A DNA stretch of 64,000 nt from Burkholderiaceae bacterium (lineage in GTDB: Bacteria; Pseudomonadota; Gammaproteobacteria; Burkholderiales; Burkholderiaceae_C): contig JAIESX010000002.1 in the NCBI GenBank assembly GCA_019745555.1, forward strand, positions 124,001 to 188,000. The letters are read 5' to 3'. The notes under the pieces are model-generated. The model saw nothing but the letters and a program-made list of their open reading frames with translations. It made no database searches and was not told where the DNA came from. Made by a program: the position numbers and the translations under genes. Numbering within the stretch: position 1 is the first letter of the stretch; every line of letters starts with the position of its first letter. This document shows positions 6,493 to 22,147 of this stretch, piece after piece.

Positions 6493-7275
6493 ATGTCTGA
6501 TGCACGCGGCCCCGAGCCTTCGACCACCCATCTGGTCCTGATCCCCACCTACAACGCCGGCGCCAAGGTGCTGGAGACTGTACGTGAGGCCCTGCAGCAC
6601 TGGGCTCCGGTCTGGGTGGTGGTGGACGGCAGCACCGATGGTACCGGTGCGCAGCTGCAGGCCCTGGCGCAGGAGCAGCCTCAGCTGCGGGTCTTCGTGC
6701 TCGAACACAACCAGGGCAAGGGTGCGGCCGTGCTGCACGGCCTGCAGGCCGCCCAGGCCGCCGGCTACACCCATGCCCTGACCATGGACTCGGACGGCCA
6801 GCACCCGGCGTACCTGATCCCGGCCTTCATGCAGGCTTCACAGGCGCAGCCTCGGTACATGATCCTGGGCAAGCCGGTCTTCGACGCCAGCGCGCCGGCC
6901 CTGCGCGTGCAGGGGCGCAAGGTCTCCAATGCCTGGGCCAATCTCGAGACCCTGTGGATGGGCATCGGGGACTCGCTCTACGGTTTTCGCGTCTACCCCG
7001 TCGCCCCGCTGGTGGAGATCATGCGCGGTCAGCGCTGGATGCGACGCTTCGACTTCGACATCGAGGCCGCGGTGCGGCTGTGCTGGCGTGGTGTCTGGCC
7101 GGTCAATCTCGACGCGCCGGTCAGGTACCTGCAGGCCGGCGAGGGCGGGGTCTCGCACTTCAACTACCTGCGCGACAACGCCTTGCTGACCTGGATGCAC
7201 ACCCGCCTCATGTGTGGTTTCCTGCTGCGCCTGCCGCTGCTCCTGGCCCGGCGCCTGTCCGGCCGGCCGGACTGA
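6493..7275 (+). CDS. glycosyltransferase family 2, probably part of the APE cluster
   Basis: The 260-residue protein is a GT-A fold glycosyltransferase of the dolichol-phosphate-mannosyltransferase type. Seen motifs are LIPTYNAG at the N terminus, VVVDGSTDGTG, NQGKGAAVLHG and the metal-binding DSDGQHP. A hydrophobic C-terminal segment (about residues 235-255) could hold it at the membrane. Its likely job is to transfer a sugar to a lipid or polyprenyl acceptor on the cytoplasmic face. It is in the same direction as the ACP and ketosynthase that follow, though separated by 183 bases. No Shine-Dalgarno sequence is seen; a CATAAT hexamer at 6479-6484 lies eight bases before the ATG. Confidence 0.82.
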   Translation: MSDARGPEPSTTHLVLIPTYNAGAKVLETVREALQHWAPVWVVVDGSTDGTGAQLQALAQEQPQLRVFVLEHNQGKGAAVLHGLQAAQAAGYTHALTMDSDGQHPAYLIPAFMQASQAQPRYMILGKPVFDASAPALRVQGRKVSNAWANLETLWMGIGDSLYGFRVYPVAPLVEIMRGQRWMRRFDFDIEAAVRLCWRGVWPVNLDAPVRYLQAGEGGVSHFNYLRDNALLTWMHTRLMCGFLLRLPLLLARRLSGRPD

Positions 7276-9555: not shown

Positions 9556-10311
9556 CACGCGGTCCTTCAGTTCCTGCCGGAAATAGGCTTCCAGCCCGGC
9601 CAGTGCGGTTGCGGTGTATTCCGGCGGCTCGAAGCGCCGGCCCAGGCGCGCTCGGATGGTCAGGGGCAACGTGGGCGGACGCAGCAGCCCCCAGTGCTTG
9701 CCGAGGTAGGGGGTGGAGAATTCAAGGATCACGGCCTGCAGCGGCACCCGGCTCTGTTTGGACAGCAGGATGCAGGCGCTGCTCAGCGGGTTGAGCGGGA
9801 AGTCCGTGGTGCGCGTGCCCTCGGGAAAGAGGATGAACTGCGCGCCGTCCTGCAGCGTGTGCGTGGAGTCCCGGATCATCTGGCGCGGATCCTCGTTGCT
9901 CACATAGCCGGCCATGCGCGCGCCGACACCGAACAGCGGGTTGTGCAGCAGGGCGGCCTTGAGCACGCAGCTGGCGTTGGGCAGCATGCTGAGCAGCAGC
10001 ACGGCGTCGAGCAGCGAAGGGTGGTTGGCGATGACGATCAGCGGTGCCCGCTCATGCCGCAGCGGCTCGAGTTCGCGCAAATCGAGGCGTACCTGGCACA
10101 AGATGCGCAGCGCCGCCAGGTAGAGCCGGAAGCCCCAGTGGATGAGGCGGCGCGAGACCGGCCGGTGCCAGCGCCGCGGCAGCACCAGATAGAGCAGGGC
10201 GAAGAGCGGAATGCTGTGCAAGCAGCCCAGGGCCAGCAGGCCCAGGCCGACGACCATGGCTAACATTTCGTAGCCACGCCAGAGCAGGCGTACGAGGGGC
10301 CGCTCCATCAT
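9541..10311 (-). CDS. PlsC-like lysophospholipid/acyl acyltransferase (APE cluster)
   Basis: The 256-residue protein has two N-terminal membrane helices (about residues 14-46) and the acyltransferase motifs NHPSLLD (HX4D catalytic motif) and FPEGTR (acceptor binding), as in 1-acyl-glycerol-3-phosphate acyltransferases. In the context of an aryl polyene cluster it probably moves an acyl or polyene chain from ACP to a lipid acceptor. The frame is open upstream to 10377, but that would run into the divergent PAP2 gene; the ATG ATG pair at 10311/10308 fits the start of hydrophobic sequence. Its 3' end overlaps the convergent dehydratase by 15 bases. Confidence 0.85.
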   Translation of the reverse strand: MMERPLVRLLWRGYEMLAMVVGLGLLALGCLHSIPLFALLYLVLPRRWHRPVSRRLIHWGFRLYLAALRILCQVRLDLRELEPLRHERAPLIVIANHPSLLDAVLLLSMLPNASCVLKAALLHNPLFGVGARMAGYVSNEDPRQMIRDSTHTLQDGAQFILFPEGTRTTDFPLNPLSSACILLSKQSRVPLQAVILEFSTPYLGKHWGLLRPPTLPLTIRARLGRRFEPPEYTATALAGLEAYFRQELKDRVSGRG

Positions 10312-10349
10312 CGCTGGTACGATCTCATCACAGGGACCGATTATTGACC

Positions 10350-11021
10350 ATGACCACTGTTTCCCCGACGCCGGCACGCACGCTCAACCAATTGCTCTGG
10401 CGTCTGTGGTGGCTCAAGGCAGTGGGGTCCGCGGTCTTCATCTGGGGCTTCTTCCAGGGCTATTTCCTCCTGCTGCGCTATCCGCACGCCGAGGTCTTCG
10501 TCATGCCGCTGACCTGGCTCGACGAACTGACGCCCATGCAGGGCTGGGCCTGGATCCCCTATCTCTCGCTCTGGTTCTATACCTGCTTGCCGCCGGCCTT
10601 CATGCCGGCCTTGCGTTCCCTGGCCTATTACGGTCTGGCCGTGGGGCTGACCTGCCTCGCCGGTCTGCTGTGCTTCTACTTCTGGCCCACGGTCGTGCCG
10701 CCTTTTGAACGGCCTGCGGGCACCGGTCTGGCCATGCTCGAGGGGGTGGACACCGCGGGCAATGCCTGTCCCTCGCTGCACGTGGCCATCGCCTTCTACT
10801 CGGCCTTCTGGCTGCAGGCGCAATTGCGCGCCGTCGGTGCGGGGCGCGGCTGGCAGGCCGCCAACTGGCTTTGGTGCGCGCTCATCGTCTACTCGACGAT
10901 GGCGACCAAGCAGCATGTGTTCATCGATGTGCTCGGCGGCCTGCTGCTCGGTGGCGCCGGTGCCGTGCTGGCGTTGGCGGGCTATCGGCGCTGGTTCGGA
11001 AGTCGCTTTCTTCCGGTCTGA
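10350..11021 (+). CDS. PAP2-family membrane phosphatase (APE cluster)
   Basis: The 223-residue protein is a multi-spanning membrane protein of the PAP2 superfamily. The conserved phosphatase parts are seen near its C terminus: ACPSLHVAIAFYSAFW (the SGH-type motif, here SLH) and KQHVFIDVLGG (the SRxxxxxHxxxD-type motif, here with Lys-Gln-His and Asp). It may dephosphorylate a lipid phosphate or diphosphate, or accept a phosphoryl group in a transfer reaction. A TTG at 10344, better spaced from the CAGGGA upstream, is an alternative start. It is divergent from the PlsC-like gene and convergent with the ketoreductase, so it stands alone in direction inside the cluster. Confidence 0.8.
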   Translation: MTTVSPTPARTLNQLLWRLWWLKAVGSAVFIWGFFQGYFLLLRYPHAEVFVMPLTWLDELTPMQGWAWIPYLSLWFYTCLPPAFMPALRSLAYYGLAVGLTCLAGLLCFYFWPTVVPPFERPAGTGLAMLEGVDTAGNACPSLHVAIAFYSAFWLQAQLRAVGAGRGWQAANWLWCALIVYSTMATKQHVFIDVLGGLLLGGAGAVLALAGYRRWFGSRFLPV

Positions 11022-11024
11022 GCT

Positions 11025-11744
11025 TCAGATCATGCCGCCGTTGACCGAGATCACCTGGCCGGTGATGTAGGCCGACTGGTCCGAGGCGAGAAAGCCGACG
11101 AGAGCCGCCACTTCCTCGGGCCGGCCGGCACGCTTCATGGGCACCAGGCGCGCGATGTCCTCGGCGCCGAAGGCCTCCTGGCTCATCTCCGAGGCGATGA
11201 TGCCCGGCGCGATGGCGTTGACCGTGATGCCACGGCTGGCCAGCTCCAGCGCCAGCGTCTTGCTGGCCGCGTGCAGTCCGCTCTTGGCCGCCGCGTAATT
11301 GCTCTGGCCGCGGTTGCCCGTGATGCCGGCAATCGAGGTGATGGTGATGATGCGGCCCCAGCGTGTGCGGATCATGGGCATGGTGAGCGGCTGCGTGACG
11401 TGGAAGAAGCCGTGCAGCGACACATCGATCACCCGGTGCCATTGCGCGCTCGTCATGCCGGGGAAGACGGCATCGTCGTGGATGCCGGCGTTGTTGACCA
11501 GCACCTGGACAGGCTGCTGCGCCACCAGGGCTTCGAGTGCGGCCCGCGTGGCGGCCTCGTCGGCCACGTCGAAGACCACGGTGGAGGCCGAGCCGCCGCC
11601 GGCGACGATCTCCTCGCGCAGCGCTTCGGCTGCAGCCGCATTGCGGTTGGCGTGGATGATGACGTGCAGGCCGTCGGCCGCAAGTCGGCGGCAGATGGCC
11701 GCGCCGATGGCGCCGCTGCCGCCGGTGACGAGTGCGTGTTTCAT
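11025..11744 (-). CDS. FabG-like 3-oxoacyl-ACP reductase (APE cluster)
   Basis: This 239-residue short-chain dehydrogenase has the NADPH-binding TGGSGAIG motif near residue 8, the NNAG motif, and the catalytic Ser-Tyr-Lys set (TSIAGITG followed by NYAAAK). It would reduce the 3-keto group formed by the ketosynthases, matching ApeQ of known APE clusters. It is the last gene of the long minus-strand operon and follows the hotdog protein by 19 bases. The C-terminal NGGMI is typical of FabG enzymes. Confidence 0.92.
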   Translation of the reverse strand: MKHALVTGGSGAIGAAICRRLAADGLHVIIHANRNAAAAEALREEIVAGGGSASTVVFDVADEAATRAALEALVAQQPVQVLVNNAGIHDDAVFPGMTSAQWHRVIDVSLHGFFHVTQPLTMPMIRTRWGRIITITSIAGITGNRGQSNYAAAKSGLHAASKTLALELASRGITVNAIAPGIIASEMSQEAFGAEDIARLVPMKRAGRPEEVAALVGFLASDQSAYITGQVISVNGGMI

Positions 11745-11763
11745 CGTGGTTCCGGAAGAGGAT

Positions 11764-12207
11764 TCAGACGCTGAGCATGACGCTGGCGCGCCCGCTCAGT
11801 ACCGTGCGGCCCGCCGCTTCGAGGCGAAAGCCGTAGAGGATGGTGTGCGCATCGCCCGAGAGGCGTTCGGCATGCACCTGCAGCTCGGGGCCGAGTTCGT
11901 CCAGACGCGTGCCTTCCCACTGCACGTCGCGCACGCTGGTCAGGAAACCGGCGGCCGGCGCGGTCTCGCTGCCCGCAAGCAGGGCGCCGTGAACGGCCAT
12001 GGCCTGGGCCGCGTACTCGATGCCGTTGGCCATGCCCAGCGTGCCGGCGTGGGCCAGCGGGTGGCCGGCTCCGGTGTGGCTGGTGGCCAGGCAATGGATG
12101 TGCGCCGCGTCCCAGGCCAGCACGCGCTCGAGCAGGCACATGCTGCCCGCATGCGGGATGCGTGCGGCGATCCAGGCCTGGTCAGGCAGCGGGCCGGATG
12201 CTGACAT
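11764..12207 (-). CDS. ApeP-like hotdog dehydratase (APE cluster)
   Basis: The 147-residue protein belongs to the hotdog family seen in aryl polyene clusters (ApeP type). It begins with IPHAGSMCLLERV, the counterpart of the FabZ N-terminal helix region, and has GIEYAAQAMAVHGAL, a signature of this group. ApeP and ApeI are thought to work as a pair of dehydratases in the E. coli system; the ApeI counterpart here is the 96-residue protein at 18088-18378. The ATG at 12207 lies inside the end of the upstream chain-length-factor gene (26-base overlap), which suggests translational coupling. A longer frame is open but gives no family-like sequence. Confidence 0.8.
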   Translation of the reverse strand: MSASGPLPDQAWIAARIPHAGSMCLLERVLAWDAAHIHCLATSHTGAGHPLAHAGTLGMANGIEYAAQAMAVHGALLAGSETAPAAGFLTSVRDVQWEGTRLDELGPELQVHAERLSGDAHTILYGFRLEAAGRTVLSGRASVMLSV

Positions 12208-12979
12208 CGAGCGACATCCCCTCAAGGTATTCCAGCGCCACGTCTCCGCGTGCGCCCCGGGCGATACCCTGCAGCAGCGGCAGGCTGCGCGCGGCCGGCG
12301 CACCCAGGCGCAACGCGTCGAGCGCGGCATCGTCCATGCCCTTTGGCGCTTGCTGGCTCAGTGCCAGATCGAGCGTGGCCAGCGTGCCGGGTGTCGGGGT
12401 GGGCGCCAGCAGCAGGGCCAGGCCGAAGGGCTGGCTGATGCGGCGCGAGGCGCCCAGCGGGCCGGGGTAGGGCGTGTCATAGGTCAGCAGCAGGCAGGGC
12501 TCCTGCGCGCTGCGCACCTGGGTGGCAGCCTCGAGCAGACCGGCGGCGAACGAGCCGTCGTAGGCGCAGAGGCTGGTCGTGGTGGCGCGGCAGGCCGTGG
12601 CGATGCTCCAGTAGCCCGAGGGCGCGTTGTGCACCGAGTTGTGGAAGCGCGTGGGCGAGACCGCACGGTCGGCCGAAGCCAGGGTCTCGAGGATGGCGTG
12701 GCAGTTGTCGCAGTCGCCCCCGCTGGACGTGAAGACCGAGCGCAGGGTGGACGCATCGGCACCGGCCTGACGTATGGCTTCGAAGCCCACGGCAAAGGCC
12801 AGCTTGATGGTGGTGCCGGCACGGCGGCGCTCCGCCGCGGGCAGGGCTTCGGGCGCGGGCAGCTGGATGGGCGCACTCGCGTAAGCGCTGCGCCCGGCCA
12901 GCACCTCGGCCGTCTGGGCCCAGCCCGTGAGGCCGGGGCCGTAGACGCCGATGCCCTGCAGATGGACGGTCAGGGTCAT
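12182..12979 (-). CDS. beta-ketoacyl synthase chain-length factor (APE cluster)
   Basis: The 265-residue protein matches the short ketosynthase-like family (Ketoacyl-synt_2) to which ApeC belongs. It contains FHNSVHNAPSGYWSIATAC and SLCAYDGSFAAGLLEA. It covers only the N-terminal half of a thiolase fold and has no His-His pair, so it is expected to be a non-condensing partner that pairs with the ketosynthase encoded just upstream and sets chain length. A Cys (C130) sits where the nucleophile of an active ketosynthase would be, which is unusual for a chain-length factor. It overlaps the ketosynthase gene by four bases (ATGA) and the following hotdog gene by 26. Confidence 0.85.
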   Translation of the reverse strand: MTLTVHLQGIGVYGPGLTGWAQTAEVLAGRSAYASAPIQLPAPEALPAAERRRAGTTIKLAFAVGFEAIRQAGADASTLRSVFTSSGGDCDNCHAILETLASADRAVSPTRFHNSVHNAPSGYWSIATACRATTTSLCAYDGSFAAGLLEAATQVRSAQEPCLLLTYDTPYPGPLGASRRISQPFGLALLLAPTPTPGTLATLDLALSQQAPKGMDDAALDALRLGAPAARSLPLLQGIARGARGDVALEYLEGMSLDVSIRPAA

Positions 12980-14205
12980 GCTGCACCCCCCGCCTTGCTG
13001 AGCACCATGCTGCAGTTGCTGCCACCGAAACCGAAGGAATTGCTCAGCACGTGTTGCAGGGGTTGCTCGAGGTTACGCAGCAGGTAGCGTGCCTTGAGCC
13101 GCGGGTCGAGTTCCTCGGTGCCGCAGCCGCCGGGGGCGAGGTTGTACTTCAGCGCGAGGGCACAGATGACGGCCTCGATACCGCCAGCCGCGCCCAGGGT
13201 GTGGCCGGTGTGGCCCTTGGTCGAACTGCAGGGGGTCTCGGTGCCGAAGAGGCCGGTCACACCCTGGTCCTCGGCCGCGTCATTGCTGGGCGTGGCTGTG
13301 CCGTGCAGATTGATGTAGTCGATCTGTGCGGGCTGGAGGCCGGCCATGTCCAGCGCCTGCTGCATGGCCAGGCGCGCGCCCAGGCCCTCGGGGTGCGGGC
13401 TGGACATGTGGTGTGCGTCGCTCGATTCACCGATGCCGCTCATCAAGATGTCACCCGCCACCACGCGGTCCGCGCGTTCGACCAGCACAAAGGCCGCGGC
13501 CTCGCCGATGGAGATGCCGTCGCGCTGCGCGTCGTAGGGGCGGCAGGGCTGGCGCGAGACCAGCTGCAGGGAGTTGAAGCCGTAGAGCGTGGTCAGGCAC
13601 AGGCTGTCGACGCCGCCGACGATGGCCGCGTCGATCAGGCCGCTGTCCATCATGCGCTGGGCATTGCCGAAGACCTTGGCGCTGGAGGAGCAGGCGGTGG
13701 AGACCACGAAGGCCGGTCCCTGCAGCCCGAAATAGCTGCGCACGAAATCGGCCACCGAGTAGCTGTTGTGCGTGCGCCGGTAGTCCAGCGGCTGCGTGAA
13801 GTCACCCGTGGCCGGATCGCGCTGGCGGTAGGCCAGCTCCGAACTCAGGATGCCCGAGGTGCTGGTGCCCAGGAAGACGCCGATGCGCTGCGCGCCATGC
13901 CGTGCCATGGCGGCCCGCACGGCGGCGACGAAACCGTCCTGTTCCAGCCCGAGCTGGGCCAGCCGGTTGTTGCGGCAGTCGTAGGCGGCGAGATCGGGGC
14001 GCAGGGTCAGCGTGTCGACCTCGGGTACTTCGCCGATGCAGGTGTCCAGATCCACGGTTTCCCAGCGTCGGGCGCGCACGCCGCTGCGCTGATCGCGCAG
14101 GGCCTGCAGGGTGGGGGCCAGACCGGCGCCCAGGGCGCTGGTCATGGTGTAGGCGGCAAGATGGAGGGCGGGCATGAAGGGGAGGGAGGCAGCGGGCGAG
14201 GACAC
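12976..14205 (-). CDS. beta-ketoacyl-ACP synthase, ApeO-like (APE cluster)
   Basis: The 409-residue condensing enzyme has all three catalytic residues: C172 in VVSTACSSSAKVFG, H301 in NLHGTATPSND and H335 in GHTGHTLGAAGG. It probably forms the main heterodimeric polyene elongase with the chain-length factor encoded next (four-base overlap), like ApeO/ApeC. The polar loop around residues 125-150 and the preserved TSTSGI segment are typical of this group. The gene follows the MMPL exporter by five bases within the minus-strand operon. Confidence 0.92.
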   Translation of the reverse strand: MSSPAASLPFMPALHLAAYTMTSALGAGLAPTLQALRDQRSGVRARRWETVDLDTCIGEVPEVDTLTLRPDLAAYDCRNNRLAQLGLEQDGFVAAVRAAMARHGAQRIGVFLGTSTSGILSSELAYRQRDPATGDFTQPLDYRRTHNSYSVADFVRSYFGLQGPAFVVSTACSSSAKVFGNAQRMMDSGLIDAAIVGGVDSLCLTTLYGFNSLQLVSRQPCRPYDAQRDGISIGEAAAFVLVERADRVVAGDILMSGIGESSDAHHMSSPHPEGLGARLAMQQALDMAGLQPAQIDYINLHGTATPSNDAAEDQGVTGLFGTETPCSSTKGHTGHTLGAAGGIEAVICALALKYNLAPGGCGTEELDPRLKARYLLRNLEQPLQHVLSNSFGFGGSNCSMVLSKAGGAA

Positions 14206-14210
14206 CCGGC

Positions 14211-16574
14211 TCAGGACGGCGATTTTACCGGGGCGGTCTGGGTCGAAGGGCTGGCCAGCACGGCCGAGAACAGCAAGGCCAGCATGGTGCCCAGACCCAC
14301 GGTGACGCCCAGGATGGTGAGCACCGGGACGCTGGACAGCGCCAGCATGCCGAAGCTGCCGACGATGGTCAGGTTGGCCGTGACGAGAGAGATCAGGGTC
14401 TGGCGCTGTTCCAGCGGGCTGGCCGCGGCGTTGCTGCTGTCGAAGAAGAGCGCGTAGTTGGAGCCGATGGCGACGACCAGCAGCAGGCCCACGAGGTGCA
14501 GGATGGTCAGCGCGGTGCCGGCCAGCAGCAGAGCCCCCGTGACGCCAAGCACGGCGCAGACCAGGGGCAGGGCCACGCGCAGGGCGCGCACGAGCGAGCG
14601 CAGCATGAAGAGCAGCAGGGCCAGGATGGCCAGGCAGCCCAGGCCCGAGTAGACCAGGGCCTCGTGCAGGTAGCTGTCGAACAGGGCGTTGGTCTCGGCC
14701 AGCAGGTCGATCACCGTGGCCTGGGCCAGGCCCTCGGCGTGCAGTGCGGCGTCGATGCGGTCCAGGTCCAGCGTGGCTTCGCCCTCGCGCAGCACGGGGC
14801 GCAGCGGCAGCAGCACAAGCACGTCGCGTTCGCGCTGCACCAGCAGGGTGTCGTAGAGCAGGGCGGCGGCCGTGCCGTCGAGGTCGGCGCGCGTCAGCAG
14901 GGGGCGGGTGCGGTTGCGCTCGGCGTCGGCCACAAAGCCCTGCAGGCGTTCGGGTTTGAGCGGCTGGCCGGCCAGGGCGGCGGCCAGGCGGCGTTGCAGC
15001 TCGGCGGCCTCGGGCAGGGCCGCTTGGCGAGCCTGCTGGCTGGCGCGGCTGGGCAGGACCTGGCTGGGCGCGCTGTAGCCGGCAAGCAGCCCTTCGCGGC
15101 TCAGCGCCTGCAGCACGCGGCTGGCGCGCTCGGACTGCTGCAGGCCCTGCTCGGCATCGGGGGCGGTGAGCACGGCCAGGTAGCGCAGCTCGGAGGCGCC
15201 GAGGTCGCGGCGCAGTTCTTCGTCGAGCTGCTGTGCGGCGCGCGGCACGGGGTTGAGCGCCGAGATGCTGCGGTTCCAGATGCGCTCGGCGTGCAGGGCC
15301 ACCACGGCCAGCATGGTGGCTACGAAAAGCAGCAGCAGGCCGCGCAGGCGCGGTGCCAGCTGCACGGCGCGCTGCAGCAAGGCACCGGTGCGCGGCAGGT
15401 CGATAGCGGGCAGCTGCGCGGGCATCAGCGGCGGCAGCACGTAGCGCGTGACCAGCACGGCGGCCAGCAGGCCGGCTGTGGAGTACAGGCCCAGCTGCAC
15501 CAGGCCCGGAAAGCCCGAGCCCAGCAGGGCCAGGAAGCCCGCGACCGAGGTCAGCAGGCCGAGCCAGAGCGTGCGCCAGAACGCGCGCCGGGCCGCGGGG
15601 CCGGGGCGTTGCACGAAGAGGTAGATGGCGTAGTCCACGGCCTCGCCGATCATGGTGGTGCCGAAGCCCAGGGTGATGCCGTGCACCTCGCCATAGACCA
15701 GGCTCACGGCCGTGATGCCCGCCAGCGTGCCCGTGAGCATGGGCAGCAGGTTGAGGCCGAGCAGGCGCCAGGAGCGGTAGACCAGCCAGAGCAGGCCCAC
15801 GACCAGCACCAGGCTGGCGATGGCCAGGCGCCGCACCTCGCTCTGGATCAGGCCGCGCGACTGCACCGAGAACACACCCGTGCCCGTCATGAGCAGGCGG
15901 GTCTCGGCCTGGCGCTGCGGGATGGCCTCGAAGGCCTGGCGCACCGCGGCCAGCGCCTGTGCCTGTGCCTCGAGGTCCGAGCCCTCGGCGCGGGTCTGCA
16001 GCAGCAACAGGGCACGGCTGCCGTCGCGCGTGGACCAGACCCCCTCGGTGCTGGGCGGCTGCTCGCCGCCTTCGAAGGCGGCGAGCAGTTCGCGGATCTC
16101 GCCCGTGGGATCGCGCGGCAGCAGCTGCTTGATCAGCATGCCGGCGCTGCCCGAGATGTCCGCCAGCGTGGCACCGATCGCATCGCGCAGGCCGGCTTCG
16201 CTGTAGCGCTCGGGCGTGACGGCGGGGCTGAGCAGGTAGCGGTTCTCGAAGAAGTAGTGGCGGTCACGCGCCTGTTCCTCGGCGCTGCCGTTCTGCACGC
16301 CGATGAACTCGGGCTGCGGGCGCAAGGTGTCGGCCAGCGCGCGCGAAAGGCGGGCACGCTCGGCGGCGTCACCGCCCTCGATGCCCACGATGACCAGGCG
16401 GGCGATGATGCCTTCCTTGAACTGGTCCACCAGCATCTGCTGGCGTTCGCTGGGCGCGCTGGGCATGAAGGCCGAGAGGTCGGTGACCACGGGCGTGCGC
16501 AGGATCACGGCGCCAAAGCCCGCGAGTACGGCGAGCCAGAGCAGGATGGGCAGATGACGACGCAGGAAATGCAT
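14211..16574 (-). CDS. MMPL/RND-family lipid exporter (APE cluster)
   Basis: The 787-residue protein has the two-fold repeated topology of MMPL transporters: one helix, a large extracytoplasmic domain (about residues 30-245), a five- to six-helix bundle, then a second helix, domain and bundle. GFGTTMIGEAVDYAIYLF and IGSNYALFFDSSN are the paired GxxxDY/F-type motifs of the proton relay. In APE clusters such a protein is thought to move the finished polyene lipid across the inner membrane or hand it to the LolA-like carrier. The ATG at 16574 is one base after the stop of the LolA-like gene. Confidence 0.88.
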   Translation of the reverse strand: MHFLRRHLPILLWLAVLAGFGAVILRTPVVTDLSAFMPSAPSERQQMLVDQFKEGIIARLVIVGIEGGDAAERARLSRALADTLRPQPEFIGVQNGSAEEQARDRHYFFENRYLLSPAVTPERYSEAGLRDAIGATLADISGSAGMLIKQLLPRDPTGEIRELLAAFEGGEQPPSTEGVWSTRDGSRALLLLQTRAEGSDLEAQAQALAAVRQAFEAIPQRQAETRLLMTGTGVFSVQSRGLIQSEVRRLAIASLVLVVGLLWLVYRSWRLLGLNLLPMLTGTLAGITAVSLVYGEVHGITLGFGTTMIGEAVDYAIYLFVQRPGPAARRAFWRTLWLGLLTSVAGFLALLGSGFPGLVQLGLYSTAGLLAAVLVTRYVLPPLMPAQLPAIDLPRTGALLQRAVQLAPRLRGLLLLFVATMLAVVALHAERIWNRSISALNPVPRAAQQLDEELRRDLGASELRYLAVLTAPDAEQGLQQSERASRVLQALSREGLLAGYSAPSQVLPSRASQQARQAALPEAAELQRRLAAALAGQPLKPERLQGFVADAERNRTRPLLTRADLDGTAAALLYDTLLVQRERDVLVLLPLRPVLREGEATLDLDRIDAALHAEGLAQATVIDLLAETNALFDSYLHEALVYSGLGCLAILALLLFMLRSLVRALRVALPLVCAVLGVTGALLLAGTALTILHLVGLLLVVAIGSNYALFFDSSNAAASPLEQRQTLISLVTANLTIVGSFGMLALSSVPVLTILGVTVGLGTMLALLFSAVLASPSTQTAPVKSPS

Positions 16575-16575
16575 G

Positions 16576-17169
16576 TCAGGGTCGCAGCGGCGTGATCTGC
16601 ATCTCGGAGCGGTCACCGTCGGCGTGGTCGTAGGCCACACTGAGCACTTCACCCTGGCTGCCGCCGATGCGGATGCGGCTGATGATGCGGCTTATGGCCG
16701 CCTCGCGCGGCACCAGCAGCAGCTGCCAGCGCGCAGCGCTGCCGATCAGGTGCACCTGGTAGACGCGTTCCAGCGCCTGGCGGTCGCCGGCCAGGGTGCC
16801 GCGTATGCCTTCGACAAAGGCCGCCACCTCGGGGTAGGACTGCAGGCTCACGGTGCGCGTGCGTCCATCCTGCGCCATGGTCAGGCGGTTGCCGTCGAGC
16901 AGCAGCGATTGCTTCTTGGGGCGCAGGGTGCGCATCTCCATGCGGTCGGGCGCGGTGAAGGAGAGTTCGCCCGCGGACTCGACCGGTTTGTCCAGCAGGG
17001 CGATGTACTTGCGCTCGACGAAGCGGGCCTGGGCGTTCTTGACCTGGGCCAGCTGCTGCATCAGGTCGGCCAGTTGCCAGTCGGCGGCTTGCGCGGCCGG
17101 CAGGGCGGTGAGCAGCGGCGCGAGCAGCAGCGCGCGTCGCAGGGGAGCTTCAGTGGGACGCACGGGCAT
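16576..17169 (-). CDS. LolA-like periplasmic carrier (APE cluster)
   Basis: The 197-residue protein has an N-terminal signal peptide (about residues 1-28, ending ALPAAQA) and then the LolA/LolB-like fold seen in APE clusters, starting ADLMQQLAQVKNAQARFVERKY. LolA proteins shield lipoprotein acyl chains in the periplasm; this relative probably ferries the polyene lipid to the outer membrane. It lies between the LpxL-like acyltransferase (20-base overlap) and the MMPL exporter (1-base gap), consistent with a shared export step. Confidence 0.85.
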   Translation of the reverse strand: MPVRPTEAPLRRALLLAPLLTALPAAQAADWQLADLMQQLAQVKNAQARFVERKYIALLDKPVESAGELSFTAPDRMEMRTLRPKKQSLLLDGNRLTMAQDGRTRTVSLQSYPEVAAFVEGIRGTLAGDRQALERVYQVHLIGSAARWQLLLVPREAAISRIISRIRIGGSQGEVLSVAYDHADGDRSEMQITPLRP

Positions 17170-18091
17170 CTCCCTTCCAGAAGTCGTAGAAGTTGAACCA
17201 GTTGCAGGGCGCAGCGCGGGCGTGCTGCTCGATCAGCGCGGCGTAGCGTTCGATGGCCGCGCGCAGGGCGACATCGCGCTGGCCTGCGGGCACGGCGCTG
17301 AAATCGGCCAGACGTTCGAAATGGATGTCGTAACGGTTGCCGCCGCGGTACAGGCCCGTCATGAAGCAGACCGGTCGGCGCAGGATGGCGGCCAGACGAA
17401 AGGGGCCAAGCGGGAAGGGGGCCGGCTCGCCGAACAGGGGCACGGCCAGGTGGGTATCCGGCCCCACGGCGCGGTCGGCCAGCAGGGCCACCATGGCGCC
17501 GGCCTCGATGCGCTCGTTGAGCTGGAAGATGGAGTCGATGCGGCCCAGCGGGATGATGTCGAGCACCACCTCGGCGTTGACCCGGGCCAGCATGCTGTTG
17601 AGCAGGCGGGCGTTCTCCGGGTACATGGCGGCGCAGACCCGCTGCCGGCTGTCGCGCCGCGCGATGGCACGCAGCACCTCGAAGCTGCCCAGGTGGGCGC
17701 CGAAGATCAGGAAGCCGCCCTGCGGTGCATCCGGGCCCTGGAAGATGTCCTGGCCGTGGATGCGCAGATCGAAGAGCTCGTGCCGGTCGTTGAGCAGGTA
17801 GACGCGGTCGTGGATGGTGCTGGCGAAGGCCAGGATGTGGCGGTACAGATCGCCCCAGCGTGCGGGGCGGCCGAGCGCGCGGCGCAGGTAGTCGCGCGAG
17901 GCGCGACGCGCCGCCGGGACGGCCAGCAGGAAGTAGAGCGCGATGCCGTAGACGATGGGCCGTGTGAGGCGCCGGCCCAGCGTGAGCGAAAGCCAGGTCA
18001 TGAGGCGCAGCAGCAACTGGCTGCCGCGCTCCTTGCGCTGCAGCCAGGCGGGTGTGCTGCCGGCGGTCGGCTCCTGCGGCGTACTGTTCAT
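17150..18091 (-). CDS. LpxL/HtrB-like acyltransferase (APE cluster)
   Basis: This 313-residue protein is of the lipid A lauroyl/myristoyl acyltransferase superfamily. It has an N-terminal membrane segment (about residues 47-60) and the catalytic GAHLGSFEVLRAI motif (HX4E), followed by the LADRAVGPDTHLAVPLFGEPAPFPLGP region typical of the family in split form. It would acylate a sugar or lipid acceptor with an ACP-bound chain. It overlaps the FabA-like hotdog gene by four bases and the LolA-like gene by 20 bases, so the three are tightly coupled. It is distinct from the PlsC-type acyltransferase at 9541-10311, giving the cluster two different acyltransferase folds. Confidence 0.85.
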   Translation of the reverse strand: MNSTPQEPTAGSTPAWLQRKERGSQLLLRLMTWLSLTLGRRLTRPIVYGIALYFLLAVPAARRASRDYLRRALGRPARWGDLYRHILAFASTIHDRVYLLNDRHELFDLRIHGQDIFQGPDAPQGGFLIFGAHLGSFEVLRAIARRDSRQRVCAAMYPENARLLNSMLARVNAEVVLDIIPLGRIDSIFQLNERIEAGAMVALLADRAVGPDTHLAVPLFGEPAPFPLGPFRLAAILRRPVCFMTGLYRGGNRYDIHFERLADFSAVPAGQRDVALRAAIERYAALIEQHARAAPCNWFNFYDFWKGDARASH

Positions 18092-18378
18092 GGCGTGGCG
18101 AGGCTGTAGCGCCCGCTGGCGACGCGGCGCGTGCCGCAGCGGATCTCGAAACGCAGGCCGGCAGCACCGGCCTCATAGTCCAGTTCCAGCGCTTCGCCCG
18201 GCGTCACCGGGCTGAGGAACTTGGCCTGGGCCAGACCGGTGATGTGGCATTGACACGCGGCCTCGAGTGCACGCTGTGCGCGGTCGAGCAGCACCACCCC
18301 CGGCAGGATAGGCCGGCCCGGGAAGTGGCCGGCATAGGCCGGGTGATCGTGTTCGATGGGCAGCGGCAGCGTGTGCAT
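18088..18378 (-). CDS. FabA-like hotdog dehydratase, ApeI-like (APE cluster)
   Basis: The 96-residue protein is a short single hotdog domain. It has YAGHFPGRPILPGVVLLD, where His18 and Asp32 correspond in kind and spacing to the catalytic His and Asp of FabA (FabZ has Glu at the second position). It is probably the ApeI counterpart that pairs with the ApeP-like protein. A longer reading frame exists upstream but lies over the methyltransferase gene; the ATG at 18378 is four bases after that gene's stop codon. It overlaps the acyltransferase start by four bases (ATGA). Confidence 0.82.
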   Translation of the reverse strand: MHTLPLPIEHDHPAYAGHFPGRPILPGVVLLDRAQRALEAACQCHITGLAQAKFLSPVTPGEALELDYEAGAAGLRFEIRCGTRRVASGRYSLATP

Positions 18379-18382
18379 GGGC

Positions 18383-19111
18383 TCAGGCCGGCTTGCGGGC
18401 GACCAGCAGGATGTTGGCGAACGGCGTGCCGGCATGCATGGGGATGGTGTCCACGGCAAAACCCAGGCCCTGCAGCAGCGCCTGCCATGCAGCAAGGGGG
18501 CGGCAGTAGAGGCGCGAGATCCCGTGGCCGCGCGCGAAGAAGACCACCGCGTCGACCCAGTTGCTGATCTTGAAGGGCAGGCCGGCCGCGGCGTCGCCCA
18601 CGCGCAGCAGCAGCACGCCGCCAGGCGCCAGCGCGTCGCGCACGCGGCGCAGCACATCTTCCTGGGCTGTCTCGTTCACGTAATGCAGCACGTCGAGGAT
18701 GACCACGGCGTCGGCCGGGGTGAACGGCGTCGTGCACATATCGCCCAGCGTGAAGCGGGCGCGCTCGCCGAGATGGCCCAGGGCCTGTTGCGCGCGTTCG
18801 ACGTCACGCGGCATGAGCTCGATGCCGTGCACCTGCACGCCGGTGGGCGGCGGGGCCCAGCCCGAGGGCCAGACGCGTTCGGCCGGTGAGTCGCCCGTGA
18901 GGCTGCCCAGCAGGGCGGCCAGCAGGCCCTGGCCGCAGCCGATGTCGAGCACGCGCGCGCGCGCCGGAATCAGGCCGCGTTGCAGCAGTCCGGCAAAGGC
19001 CGGGTCGCCGCCGAGCTTGCCGCGCGCGAAATGCCAGGCGAACTTGCCCAGCGGGCGGTAGGGCGCGGTGGCTTGTTCAAGCAGGGCGGGGGGCAGCGGG
19101 ACTTTGGACAT
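18383..19111 (-). CDS. class I SAM-dependent methyltransferase (APE cluster)
   Basis: The 242-residue protein has the SAM-binding motif VLDIGCGQGLLAALL near residue 56, an acidic second motif (HGIELMPRDVERA), the LGDM and VVILDVLHYV segments, and the LAPGGVLLLRVGD motif. It probably methylates the aromatic head of the polyene, as known aryl polyenes carry methyl or O-methyl groups on the ring (inference). The start at 19111 is chosen over an in-frame ATG at 19138 because the family begins near MSKVPLPP; the upstream ATG cannot be excluded, and no ribosome site distinguishes them. Confidence 0.85.
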   Translation of the reverse strand: MSKVPLPPALLEQATAPYRPLGKFAWHFARGKLGGDPAFAGLLQRGLIPARARVLDIGCGQGLLAALLGSLTGDSPAERVWPSGWAPPPTGVQVHGIELMPRDVERAQQALGHLGERARFTLGDMCTTPFTPADAVVILDVLHYVNETAQEDVLRRVRDALAPGGVLLLRVGDAAAGLPFKISNWVDAVVFFARGHGISRLYCRPLAAWQALLQGLGFAVDTIPMHAGTPFANILLVARKPA

Positions 19112-19159: not shown

Positions 19160-21325
19160 TCAGACCCGTTCCGGGCTGAGCCGCACGGTCTGAAGCCCGC
19201 GTTCGCGCAGTGTGGCGAGCAACGGCGGCAGCACGTCCAGCAGCACGGGCCGGCCTTGCGGCGTGCGTGCGGCGTGGTGGTCGTGCAGCAGCAGGATGTC
19301 GCCCGCGGCAAGATGGCGCGTGAGGCGGCGCAGCACCAGGGCGGCGTCGCCCGTTCGGGTGTCGAAGCCGCGGCGCGTCCAGCTGGCCAGGCGCAGGTCC
19401 AGCGCGTGCAGCACGGGGTCGAGGAAGATGTTGCGCAGCCCGGCGGGTGCGCGGAAGAAGGCTGGCTTCACACCCGTGACCTGGGCGATGCTGTCCTGCG
19501 CGGTGCCGATCTCGCGCCGCAGGGCGCCGGGCCCCATGAGCGAGAAGCGGTGGCTGTGGTGCTGGCTGTGGTTGCCGATGGCGTGCCCGCGGCGTACGAT
19601 CTCGCGCGCCAGCGCCGGGTGCTGCTGCACGTGTGCGCCCAGGCAGAAGAAGGTCGCCACGGCGCCGTGCTGCTCCAGCAGGTCCAGCACGGCCGGCGTG
19701 ACCTCGGGATCGGGGCCGTCGTCGATGGTGATGGCCACCTCGGGCCGATGGCGCGGCAGATGCAGCAGATTGGGCCCCAGCCAGGTGCTGCGCGGCCACA
19801 GGCCGGTGCTGGCAATCACGGCGTGGTTGGCGACCAGGGCCCCCACGCTCCAGGGCCAGGCCGGCGTGAAGAGGCCGGCGGCCGCCACGGCGTGCAGGCC
19901 CAGCGAGCCGCTGACCAGGGGCGTGGGCTTCCAGCGCGGCCGCACGGAGGTGGCGGGATTGACCGGGTGCTGCAGCTGGCGCGCGAGTTCGGCCAGGGCC
20001 TGCTGCGGCAGCTTGCCCGTGGCATTGCGCGGCAGGGCGGCGACGAAATGGATGGGGCGCGGCAGGAAGGCCGGGTCGATGCGCTCGCGCAGCGCATGCT
20101 GCAGCGCGGTTTCGTCCAGGCCCGGGGCGACGACAAAGGCGATCGGGCGCTGGATGCGGGCCTGCGCGTCGTGGGCCGCGTCCTGCGGCCAGTAGAGCGC
20201 GCCGTCGAGTACGCCGGGGATGCTGTTGAGCTGGTGGTTCAGATAGGCCAGCGAGGTGCGTTTGCCGGCGATGTTGACCATGTCGGTATGCCGGCCCAGC
20301 AACGCAAAGCGCGTGGGCGACTGCAGCTCCAGCACGTCGGACAGCGGCACCACGCCCTCCACATGGCCGCCGCTGGCGGCAAAGCGCAGTTCCTCGCCCG
20401 CGGGTGTGGGCAGGGCCTGGACCTGCACGCCATTGAGGGTCTGCCAGAGCTCGCCGGCCGAGCCGCGGCGCGTGGCGATCTGGCCGGTCTCGGTGCTGCC
20501 ATAGATCTCCAGCAGCGGCGCACCGAGGCGCTCCTCGGCCTGGCGCGCGAGCTGGGGCGCCAGCGGCGCGGTCGCGCTGAGCAGCAGGGCCAGCGGTGGC
20601 ACGGCCAGGCCCGACTCGATCAGGGTGCGCAGATGGAAAGGCGTGCTGACCAGCAGGCGCGGCCCGGGCGTGGCCTCGAGCGCCTGCACGATGTCGGCCG
20701 GATAGAAGGGGTGGCTGGCGTCGATGATGCCCTCGTTGAGCAGGGGCAGCAGCACCGTGGACTCGAAGCCGTACATGTGCTGGGCCGGCACGGTACCCGT
20801 GACGGTGAAGGGCGCGTCCGTGCCCAGCCACTCGCGCACGCGCCGGCCCGCGCCCTGGGCGTTCTCGACCAGCAGGCCCCAGTGCTTGACATGGGGCACG
20901 GGGTCGCCGGTGGAGCCCGAGGTGAAGACGTAGGCCGCGACCTGCTTCGACGGGATGTCGGGCACCTCGAAGGCGTCACCGGGCGCGGCGACGGGGCCGC
21001 GCTCGTAGATGATTTGCGGCAGGCCGCCGCTGTCGCCCGGCGCATCGACCACGGCCTGCAGGCCGGGGTGCTGCTTGCCCAGGCGCTGCAGCATCTCGGG
21101 CGTGCGGGTCGAGGGCAGCAGCAGGGGCACGCCGCGCAGCAGCGCGGCGGCCAGCACTACGGCGAAATGGTGGCGCTTGCTGCAGAGGTTGAGCACCGGA
21201 CAGCCCTCGGGCAGGCGTGCGGCCATGTGGCGCGCGGCAGCCAGGACGTCCTGCGCGGTGATGGCGCGGCCCTTGGTCCAGGCCATCACGGCCTGGGGCG
21301 AGCGATGCGAGAACAGGGCGGGCAT
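19160..21325 (-). CDS. fusion of acyl-adenylating enzyme and NodB-type deacetylase (APE cluster)
   Basis: This 721-residue protein joins two enzymes in one uninterrupted frame. Residues 1-455 are an ANL adenylation domain: P-loop FTSGSTG (134-140), YGSTETG (275-281), the ATP-ribose Asp348 in GRHTDMVNIAGKR and the C-terminal catalytic Lys438 in RNATGKLP. It would activate an aryl acid for loading on ACP, like ApeH. Residues 470-515 are hydrophobic (likely two membrane helices). Residues 525-721 are a polysaccharide deacetylase domain with all motifs: TIDDGPDP (Asp536, Asp537), GNHSQHH (His586, His590), FFRAPAG (Arg625) and LLHDHH (His681). If the two helices form a hairpin, the deacetylase would stay cytoplasmic. 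The start at 21325 is two bases after the upstream membrane gene's stop. Confidence 0.85.
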   Translation of the reverse strand: MPALFSHRSPQAVMAWTKGRAITAQDVLAAARHMAARLPEGCPVLNLCSKRHHFAVVLAAALLRGVPLLLPSTRTPEMLQRLGKQHPGLQAVVDAPGDSGGLPQIIYERGPVAAPGDAFEVPDIPSKQVAAYVFTSGSTGDPVPHVKHWGLLVENAQGAGRRVREWLGTDAPFTVTGTVPAQHMYGFESTVLLPLLNEGIIDASHPFYPADIVQALEATPGPRLLVSTPFHLRTLIESGLAVPPLALLLSATAPLAPQLARQAEERLGAPLLEIYGSTETGQIATRRGSAGELWQTLNGVQVQALPTPAGEELRFAASGGHVEGVVPLSDVLELQSPTRFALLGRHTDMVNIAGKRTSLAYLNHQLNSIPGVLDGALYWPQDAAHDAQARIQRPIAFVVAPGLDETALQHALRERIDPAFLPRPIHFVAALPRNATGKLPQQALAELARQLQHPVNPATSVRPRWKPTPLVSGSLGLHAVAAAGLFTPAWPWSVGALVANHAVIASTGLWPRSTWLGPNLLHLPRHRPEVAITIDDGPDPEVTPAVLDLLEQHGAVATFFCLGAHVQQHPALAREIVRRGHAIGNHSQHHSHRFSLMGPGALRREIGTAQDSIAQVTGVKPAFFRAPAGLRNIFLDPVLHALDLRLASWTRRGFDTRTGDAALVLRRLTRHLAAGDILLLHDHHAARTPQGRPVLLDVLPPLLATLRERGLQTVRLSPERV

Positions 21326-21874: not shown

Positions 21875-22147
21875 TCAGACCCGGTGCGAGGCGATGTGGG
21901 CAGCCAGATTGCGCAGGGAGCTGAAGATGGTGACGTTGTCGGGATCGTCCGAGCGCATCTGGAAGCCGTACTGCTTGGAGACCGCCAGCGCGATCTCCAG
22001 CACGTCGATCGAGTCCAGGCCCAGGCCCTCGCCATACAGCGGGTCCGTCGGCGAGATCTGGTCGGGGGTGACCTCCAGGTTCAGCGTGGTGACGATGAAC
22101 TGGGCAATCTCGCGCTCGAAATCGGTCAGGGTGGCGGTGGTGCTCAT
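21875..22147 (-). CDS. second acyl carrier protein (APE cluster)
   Basis: The 90-residue protein is an acyl carrier protein with the phosphopantetheine motif GEGLGLDSIDVLEIA and Ser46 as the modified residue. It is the first gene of the minus-strand operon and is transcribed away from dusA. The sequence differs clearly from the ACP at 7459-7743, so the two probably carry different intermediates, as proposed for ApeE and ApeF. A possible -10 hexamer TAAAAT on the minus strand lies at 22192-22197, about 45 bases upstream of the start. Confidence 0.9.
   Translation of the reverse strand: MSTTATLTDFEREIAQFIVTTLNLEVTPDQISPTDPLYGEGLGLDSIDVLEIALAVSKQYGFQMRSDDPDNVTIFSSLRNLAAHIASHRV

Follow-up and report, generated by a model that had tools for sequence, protein, structure and literature searches.

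An in-frame fusion of a starter ligase and a CE4-type deacetylase in an aryl polyene type gene cluster, best read as a recent joining of two neighbours

A single open reading frame in the DNA analyzed here joins an aryl adenylating ligase to a polysaccharide deacetylase, which raises the question of whether this fusion signals that activation of the aryl starter is linked to deacetylation, as a reading of the sequence alone had proposed, or whether two ordinary neighbors of a pigment cluster have run together. The window, by which we mean the whole 64,000-nucleotide stretch from a Burkholderiaceae bacterium (assembly GCA_019745555.1, contig JAIESX010000002.1), carries the fused gene on its minus strand with an ATG at 21325, a stop ending at 19160 and 721 codons that contain no internal stop, for a predicted protein of about 77.5 kDa (Table 1). 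Pfam matches AMP-binding to residues 17-286 (61.7 bits versus a cut-off of 29.9), AMP-binding_C to residues 389-438 (29.2 versus 24.5) and Polysacc_deac_1 (PF01522) to residues 525-637 (97.0 versus 23.1). Specifically, both ANL profiles (PF00501/PF13193) score above their curated cut-offs and are accompanied by the core motifs and the C-terminal lysine, and the CE4/NodB profile, also above its curated cut-off, is accompanied by an Asp-His-His metal site as well as other residues of the family motifs. The sequence-only reading is thus borne out on this point: within a cluster of aryl polyene type, one uninterrupted frame joins an ApeH/ArcT-like ligase to a NodB-type deacetylase.

That reading had also held that the motifs for both activities are visible, and alignments agree. 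Among 86 complete ligases of 420-560 amino acids, the window's included, the ligase half shares the conserved TSGSTG (135), YGSTETG (275), GRxxDxxNxAGKR (344) and LPRNATGK (431), which we take to serve the ANL roles assigned to such motifs. The last lysine, within LPRNATGK, is present in all 86, and a cruder text search found [STA]G[KR] within the last 60 residues in 88 of 125 ligases. For the deacetylase half, D535, D536, H586, H590, R625, W649, D655 and H681 are conserved in 70 of 71 aligned rows, with the remaining row (L063) having a gap at these residues since it was shortened by the start rule used; D535/D536, H586, H590 and the other conserved positions presumably are the CE4 metal site and motif residues. 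The metal site is therefore retained in the relatives as well.

Table 1. Positions of the fused gene, its parts and the neighboring genes within the window
Feature	Positions	Strand	Basis
Fused gene, 721 aa, ApeH/ArcT-like aryl adenylating ligase plus CE4 deacetylase	19160..21325	minus	frame, Pfam, relatives
Ligase domain, residues 1-448, ANL superfamily, AMP-binding plus AMP-binding_C	19982..21325	minus	Pfam, motifs, structure matches
Junction linker, residues 449-465	19931..19981	minus	model confidence, dN/dS, alignment to separate genes
Hydrophobic two-helix hairpin, residues 469-484 and 490-508	19802..19921	minus	model, alignment; also in separate deacetylases
CE4/NodB deacetylase domain, residues 525-721 plus stop	19160..19753	minus	Pfam, motifs, model, structure matches
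Acyl carrier protein, ApeF-like	21875..22147	minus	Pfam, relatives
Protein at ApeG position, without Pfam match; ApeG/COG4648 name by position, E. coli table of PMC8253772	21328..21855	minus	
SAM methyltransferase, after the deacetylase here and in split L009 and L013	18383..19138	minus	Pfam
ApeI-like dehydratase (FabA-like), first gene of seemingly replaced block	18088..18387	minus	Pfam, tblastn
LpxL-type acyltransferase of seemingly replaced block	17150..18091	minus	Pfam, tblastn
LolA-like carrier of seemingly replaced block	16576..17169	minus	Pfam, tblastn
MMPL-type exporter of seemingly replaced block; start codon chosen, open frame reaches 16652	14211..16571	minus	Pfam, tblastn
Ketosynthase, ApeO-like	12976..14205	minus	Pfam, tblastn
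Short ketosynthase-like protein / chain-length factor, ApeC-like	12182..12979	minus	Pfam, tblastn
Dehydratase, ApeP-like; by position and translation, without Pfam match	11764..12225	minus	
Ketoreductase, ApeQ-like	11025..11744	minus	Pfam, tblastn
Family 2 glycosyltransferase, candidate maker of the deacetylase substrate	6493..7275	plus	Pfam

The genes surrounding the fused gene include, standing together, a ketosynthase pair, a ketoreductase, dehydratases, an acyl carrier protein (ACP), the ligase, LolA, an MMPL exporter and an acyltransferase. There is also another acyltransferase on the minus strand, and ketosynthase, dehydratase and PAP2 genes accompany the glycosyltransferase on the plus strand. 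These assignments are based on Pfam, except for the ApeP-like dehydratase and the ApeG-position protein, whose names come from where they lie and from homologous loci, and the Ape names follow by analogy the E. coli table in the available part of PMC8253772. The gene content is that of an aryl polyene cluster of the xanthomonadin/arcuflavin kind, and the predicted product is an aryl polyene lipid, a pigment of the outer membrane. Note that hydroxybenzoate is the expected starter, though chorismate lyase (PF04345) was not found in the window's own genome (G000, 88.6% complete).

We asked how common the fused state is by applying a single classification rule to all 79 related loci of a genome scan. 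Three loci are fused (L005, L006 and L007), one has overlapping genes (L008), 62 have the two genes apart on one strand, one has them on opposite strands (L032) and 12 have no deacetylase in the available stretch. In 10 of these 12 loci no more than 3.8 kb of sequence is available beyond the ligase, and no deacetylase is present in the 5.2 and 10.0 kb next to the ligase in L035 and L036, respectively. In the 62 one-strand split loci, the ligase stop is separated by 4,024-5,056 bases from the point at which deacetylase homology begins. Thus, split forms dominate over fused forms, and the deacetylase is a regular gene of such clusters and not an added activity. A domain added to the ligase for new chemistry is ruled out, given that most such clusters encode the deacetylase on its own.

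Searches of wider genome samples, which overlap one another, gave matches to the fused protein in 104 of 399 family-level genomes at E<=1e-50, in 65 of 369 class-level genomes at 1e-40, in 16 of 299 phylum-level genomes at 1e-30 and in 109 of 300 order-level genomes at 1e-10, with many of the order-level matches being weak ones to unrelated ligases or deacetylases. Among the matches listed for the family sample, a single match over residues 1-721 occurs only in G000 and in G437, which by its coordinates is L005; among those listed for the order, class and phylum samples, both domains are spanned only in G000. Five other genomes of the window's genus are listed in the family sample. G437 matches, and G313, G520, G589 and G649 gave nothing at 1e-50 with the fused gene as query, so gain and loss of the cluster within the genus may be common. 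A plasmid search returned six records at 1e-40, none of which covers 80% of the query in one place, and thus no additional fusion came from plasmids. A second fusion suggested by a match to residues 6-556 in G652 is ruled out, as the ligase and deacetylase there are ~4.0 kb apart (L132). Within the genomes searched, the fusion is confined to one group, and it is not named in the titles or abstract openings listed by searches of open-access literature on aryl polyene, xanthomonadin, flexirubin and arcuflavin pigments.

Other arrangements were also seen. L133 (G351) and L134 (G143) are compact, unfused clusters with ligase-deacetylase gaps of 1.1 kb and 0.36 kb, respectively; the exporter and LolA genes of L133 are not located between ligase and deacetylase, and the exporter match of G351 is on another contig. 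Two ligase-like stretches occur in tandem at G928:C32:19442-21763 (open frame of 802 aa) and at G1044:C1:450482-453061 (open frame of 888 aa), and these are possible ligase-ligase fusions.

We compared the composition of the cluster with split relatives using best tblastn segments. In L009 and L013 the dehydratase, acyltransferase, LolA and exporter genes sit between ligase and deacetylase, whereas in the window this block is downstream of the methyltransferase. The window's ligase, deacetylase, methyltransferase, ACP and family 2 glycosyltransferase (GT2) are 77-83% identical to those of L009/L013. In contrast, its dehydratase I, acyltransferase, LolA and exporter are only 39-49% identical to those of L009/L013 versus 55-63% to those of L150/L151 (genomes G418 and G325). 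The ketosynthase, chain-length factor, ApeP-like dehydratase and ketoreductase are 57-76% identical to G418/G325 versus 52-69% to L009/L013, with the lean of the chain-length factor being weak (58-61 versus 56-58). Overall, the eight genes at 11025-18387 lean to G418/G325 rather than to L009/L013, the chain-length factor weakly, and seven lean to L009/L013 (ACP, ApeG-position gene, ligase, deacetylase, methyltransferase, GT2 and PAP2). The ApeG-position gene, at 85% identity to L013, 57% to L009 and 53% to L008, misfits a simple two-source mosaic. A plain deletion of the intervening genes is ruled out, since the dehydratase, acyltransferase, LolA and exporter genes persist, diverged, downstream of the methyltransferase.

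The junction DNA exhibits three states. Ligase and deacetylase are separate in L009 and L013, the ligase stop and deacetylase start overlap as ATGA in L008, and the junctions of the window, L005, L006 and L007 read through, lacking both that ATG and that stop. L008 (MAG SKS4.bin78) already has the new order, ligase-deacetylase-methyltransferase-dehydratase, with halves 79 and 83% identical to those of the window and a dehydratase 75% identical, but unlike the window it uses two reading frames. The four fused rows group together on both trees, with support of 100/100 for the ligase (34 chosen rows) and of 99/97 for the deacetylase (30 rows), and a single origin of the fusion may be proposed as compatible with these trees, short of demonstrated. 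L008 falls outside L009/L013 on the ligase tree (95/80) and in an unresolved group with L013 and the fused rows on the deacetylase tree; because it branches differently on the two trees we do not claim an exact path. Split, overlapping and fused would thus be an order of states, short of a proven line of descent.

The hydrophobic stretch between the two domains, which had been pointed out from the sequence alone, is indeed present at residues 469-508. However, it is not a linker made by the fusion. The fused deacetylase is 45-80% identical to 29 separate ones from ligase-bearing loci, N-terminal helices included, and because the homology takes in the hairpin as well as residues ahead of it, this stretch corresponds to the N-terminus of the separate deacetylase. 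WPWALGA, GLWPRS, LGPN and RLP are majority features of the 30 aligned deacetylase rows. In the separate proteins, the counterpart of the linker at 449-465 is the C-terminal tail of the ligase together with the very beginning of the deacetylase.

The junction frame is also open in the three other fused assemblies. The open frame of L005 has 721 codons, that of L006 has 587 codons beginning at residue 135, and that of L007 has 508 codons running from residue 102 to the contig end. Over the stretches compared these three share 91-97% protein identity with the window, and their junction codons differ. The ligase of L007 (Curvibacter UBA7973, 10001-12150) is in two pieces out of frame, with residues 1-109 ~0.3 kb off in a different frame, which may reflect an insertion, a pseudogene or an assembly fault. 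Because its ligase start lies apart in another frame, L007 backs the junction and not an intact gene.

Comparison of the window with L005, L006 and L007, the latter two being partial, gave dN/dS values of 0.05-0.11 for the ligase and 0.12-0.14 for the deacetylase domain, a pattern that points to purifying selection on both enzyme domains. The hairpin gave 0.33 against L007 but 0.04-0.09 against the other two, and the 17-residue junction gave 0.18-0.87 on small counts of 9 to 19 changes. By these measures the junction appears to drift yet stays in frame. Synonymous divergence among the fused copies is dS 0.19-0.33 with the frame retained, which would also fit a fusion that is maintained by selection. 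In regards to internal starts, no in-frame ATG occurs over residues 441-500 in any of the four fused copies, an in-frame GTG at 461, near the start of the separate genes, is present in the window copy only, and in-frame GTGs at 480 and 494, inside the helices, are shared by the window, L005 and L006. With no ATG, and with the GTG at 461 unshared, no start has been retained at the old place. An internal start that yields an additional separate deacetylase therefore lacks support at that place, although the GTGs at 480 and 494 would formally allow one.

Our best reading is that of a recent fusion of neighbors rather than a sign of coupling between starter activation and deacetylation. Specifically, we consider it quite probable that this is a clade-specific in-frame fusion of two ordinary neighbors, a by-product of block replacement, in which the halves act independently and the deacetylase is cytoplasmic. 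The resident dehydratase-acyltransferase-LolA-exporter block would have been lost from between ligase and deacetylase, which are usually 4-5 kb apart, and a diverged version of the block would have been sited downstream of the methyltransferase, making ligase and deacetylase adjacent. The two genes would then have come to overlap (ATGA, as in L008), and a small frame change would have joined them. In the resulting protein the ligase half may adenylate an aromatic acid such as hydroxybenzoate, an activity that is known for ArcT, and load it onto the ACP, by which the polyene would be started. Anchored by its hairpin at the cytoplasmic face of the inner membrane, the deacetylase half would remove an acetyl group from the amino sugar of a lipid head group, putatively made by the cluster glycosyltransferase, before export. 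The two activities probably work independently, and lasting effects of the fusion would be equal dosage and a ligase tethered to the membrane.

A different explanation, which we regard as unlikely, is that the fusion was selected since membrane tethering of the starter ligase, or joining of the deacetylase to it, raises the flow into a pigment that is anchored in the membrane. This would agree with a junction frame that is kept in four assemblies under purifying selection on both halves, with both enzymes coming from one cluster and with a hairpin that would anchor the ligase. However, starter activation and the lipid head group are at opposite ends of the expected pathway, the fusion is found in one group only, each half would be constrained even in a neutral fusion, and the junction evolves fast, though on few changes. 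The earlier proposal that the fusion itself is a sign of deacetylation linked to aryl starter activation is therefore not supported, given a deacetylase that is usually separate, a hydrophobic stretch that is the deacetylase's own N-terminus, a single fused group and a cluster with signs of block swapping, and no observation here connects the two steps. That the product contains a deacetylated amino sugar remains plausible, but what speaks for this is the presence of a deacetylase gene in the cluster and not the fusion. More speculative, and in our estimate improbable, is a scheme in which the fusion yields a starter enzyme tethered to the membrane, the polyene of this clade is begun at the inner membrane beside the place of head-group deacetylation, and the amine freed by the deacetylase accepts the finished polyene, such that one protein governs both ends.

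The cytoplasmic placement of the deacetylase in the neighbor-fusion reading draws on structure models and hairpin topology. The whole-protein model (mean pLDDT 88.7, pTM 0.61) predicts two domains on a loose linker, with residues 449-460 under 50. Further stretches with pLDDT <50 (348-357, 418-434 and 437-439) are all in the C-terminal part of the ligase, and at 418-434 and 437-439 the alignment fed to the model was faulty. A model of the last 266 residues (mean pLDDT 94.4) has two helices preceding the NodB fold at fragment positions 14-29 and 35-53, which are residues 469-484 and 490-508 of the fused protein. The hairpin loop lacks K/R in 23 of 30 deacetylase rows, the C-terminal flank has 2-5 K/R in all 30 rows and the N-terminal flank has at least one in 27 of 30. 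Two helices would put both hairpin ends on one side of the membrane, and since the ligase needs ATP and is joined via this hairpin, the deacetylase half is read as cytoplasmic; hairpin, flank charges and ATP need together suggest this location. In the window, however, the two helices are only mildly hydrophobic, with mean Kyte-Doolittle values of 1.21 and 0.78, and might thus associate with the membrane in a monotopic or peripheral manner.

It could instead be argued that the helices are a signal anchor and that the deacetylase is periplasmic, with peptidoglycan or exopolysaccharide as its substrate and no part in the pigment. ANL ligases (MatB, MenE and benzoate-CoA ligases) are the top structure matches of the whole fused protein, and the solved structures closest to the deacetylase part are CE4 enzymes that act on peptidoglycan, xylan and chitin, with 7fbw at the top (TM 0.92 by target length). 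Such CE4 enzymes mostly act outside the cell. Both 7fbw and 4l1g share the NodB fold with the window over about 190-200 aligned columns but differ in that the deacetylase domain alone is matched, without a ligase and with other substrates. ArnD (8t0j, rank 40 among the matches) has the same NodB fold in a sugar-lipid enzyme and works on the cytoplasmic side. The available text of PMC3992019, on flexirubin, groups the gene with possible export functions. Nevertheless, a periplasmic location seems very improbable against two helices rather than one, positive flanks at both ends, the covalent link to an ATP-using enzyme, the polyene genes alongside in the compared loci and the ArnD precedent.

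Finally, an artefact in which a lost stop or a frameshift fakes one gene from two overlapping ones is scarcely credible, for although the window genome is a draft (57 contigs, 88.6% complete), L008 has two overlapping genes and the L007 ligase is broken upstream, the junction is open in L005, L006 and L007 with differing codons and without the ATG or stop of L008. No stop or frameshift between the domains was seen in the window, L005 or L006. The fusion is confirmed as real and not a chance occurrence, with sequencing error very unlikely.

A separate deacetylase in such clusters is already known from the accessible portions of PMC3949708 and PMC3992019, where it is merely listed or given a possible export role, and the fused form is a variant of this arrangement. 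In the portion of PMC3949708 that covers the arcuflavin cluster of Azoarcus sp. BH72, ArcT adenylates 3-hydroxybenzoate in vitro and an arcT mutant is colorless. Like the window, this polyene cluster contains an AMP-ligase (arcT) and a polysaccharide deacetylase (arcN) together with methyltransferase, exporter, LolA, acyltransferase, dehydratase and ACP genes, but arcT and arcN are separate with five genes (arcO-arcS) between them, a likeness drawn by description (PMC3949708). Measured against arcN, again by description, the window's deacetylase has the whole-length homology to separate deacetylases but lacks a reading frame of its own apart from the ligase. In flxP-flxU of the Chitinophaga pinensis flexirubin cluster, a putative polysaccharide deacetylase is beside acyltransferase, LolA, glycosyltransferase and exporter genes as in the window; also likened by description, it differs in being a separate function and in belonging to the Bacteroidetes (PMC3992019, in part). 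ApeH of the E. coli and Xenorhabdus doucetiae APE clusters adenylates 4-hydroxybenzoate and loads the ACP without a CoA intermediate, and unlike the fused protein it is an acyl-ACP synthetase alone (PMC8253772, in part). The word stem 'deacetyl' is absent from the main text of PMC8253772 as far as that text was available, and the available part of PMC12664062 has nothing on the lipid or on a deacetylase.

The fusion is thus modest in meaning, and its main use is as evidence on the cytoplasmic side of the deacetylase. It is a probable case of cluster block swapping creating a two-enzyme protein, with close relatives in the separate and overlapping states. It also acts as a natural topology probe, since a deacetylase attached via a two-helix hairpin to a ligase that needs ATP should itself be cytoplasmic. 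A cytoplasmic deacetylase would in turn place deacetylation of such pigments before export, and this points to an N-acetylated amino sugar in the head group that is freed on the inner face of the membrane.
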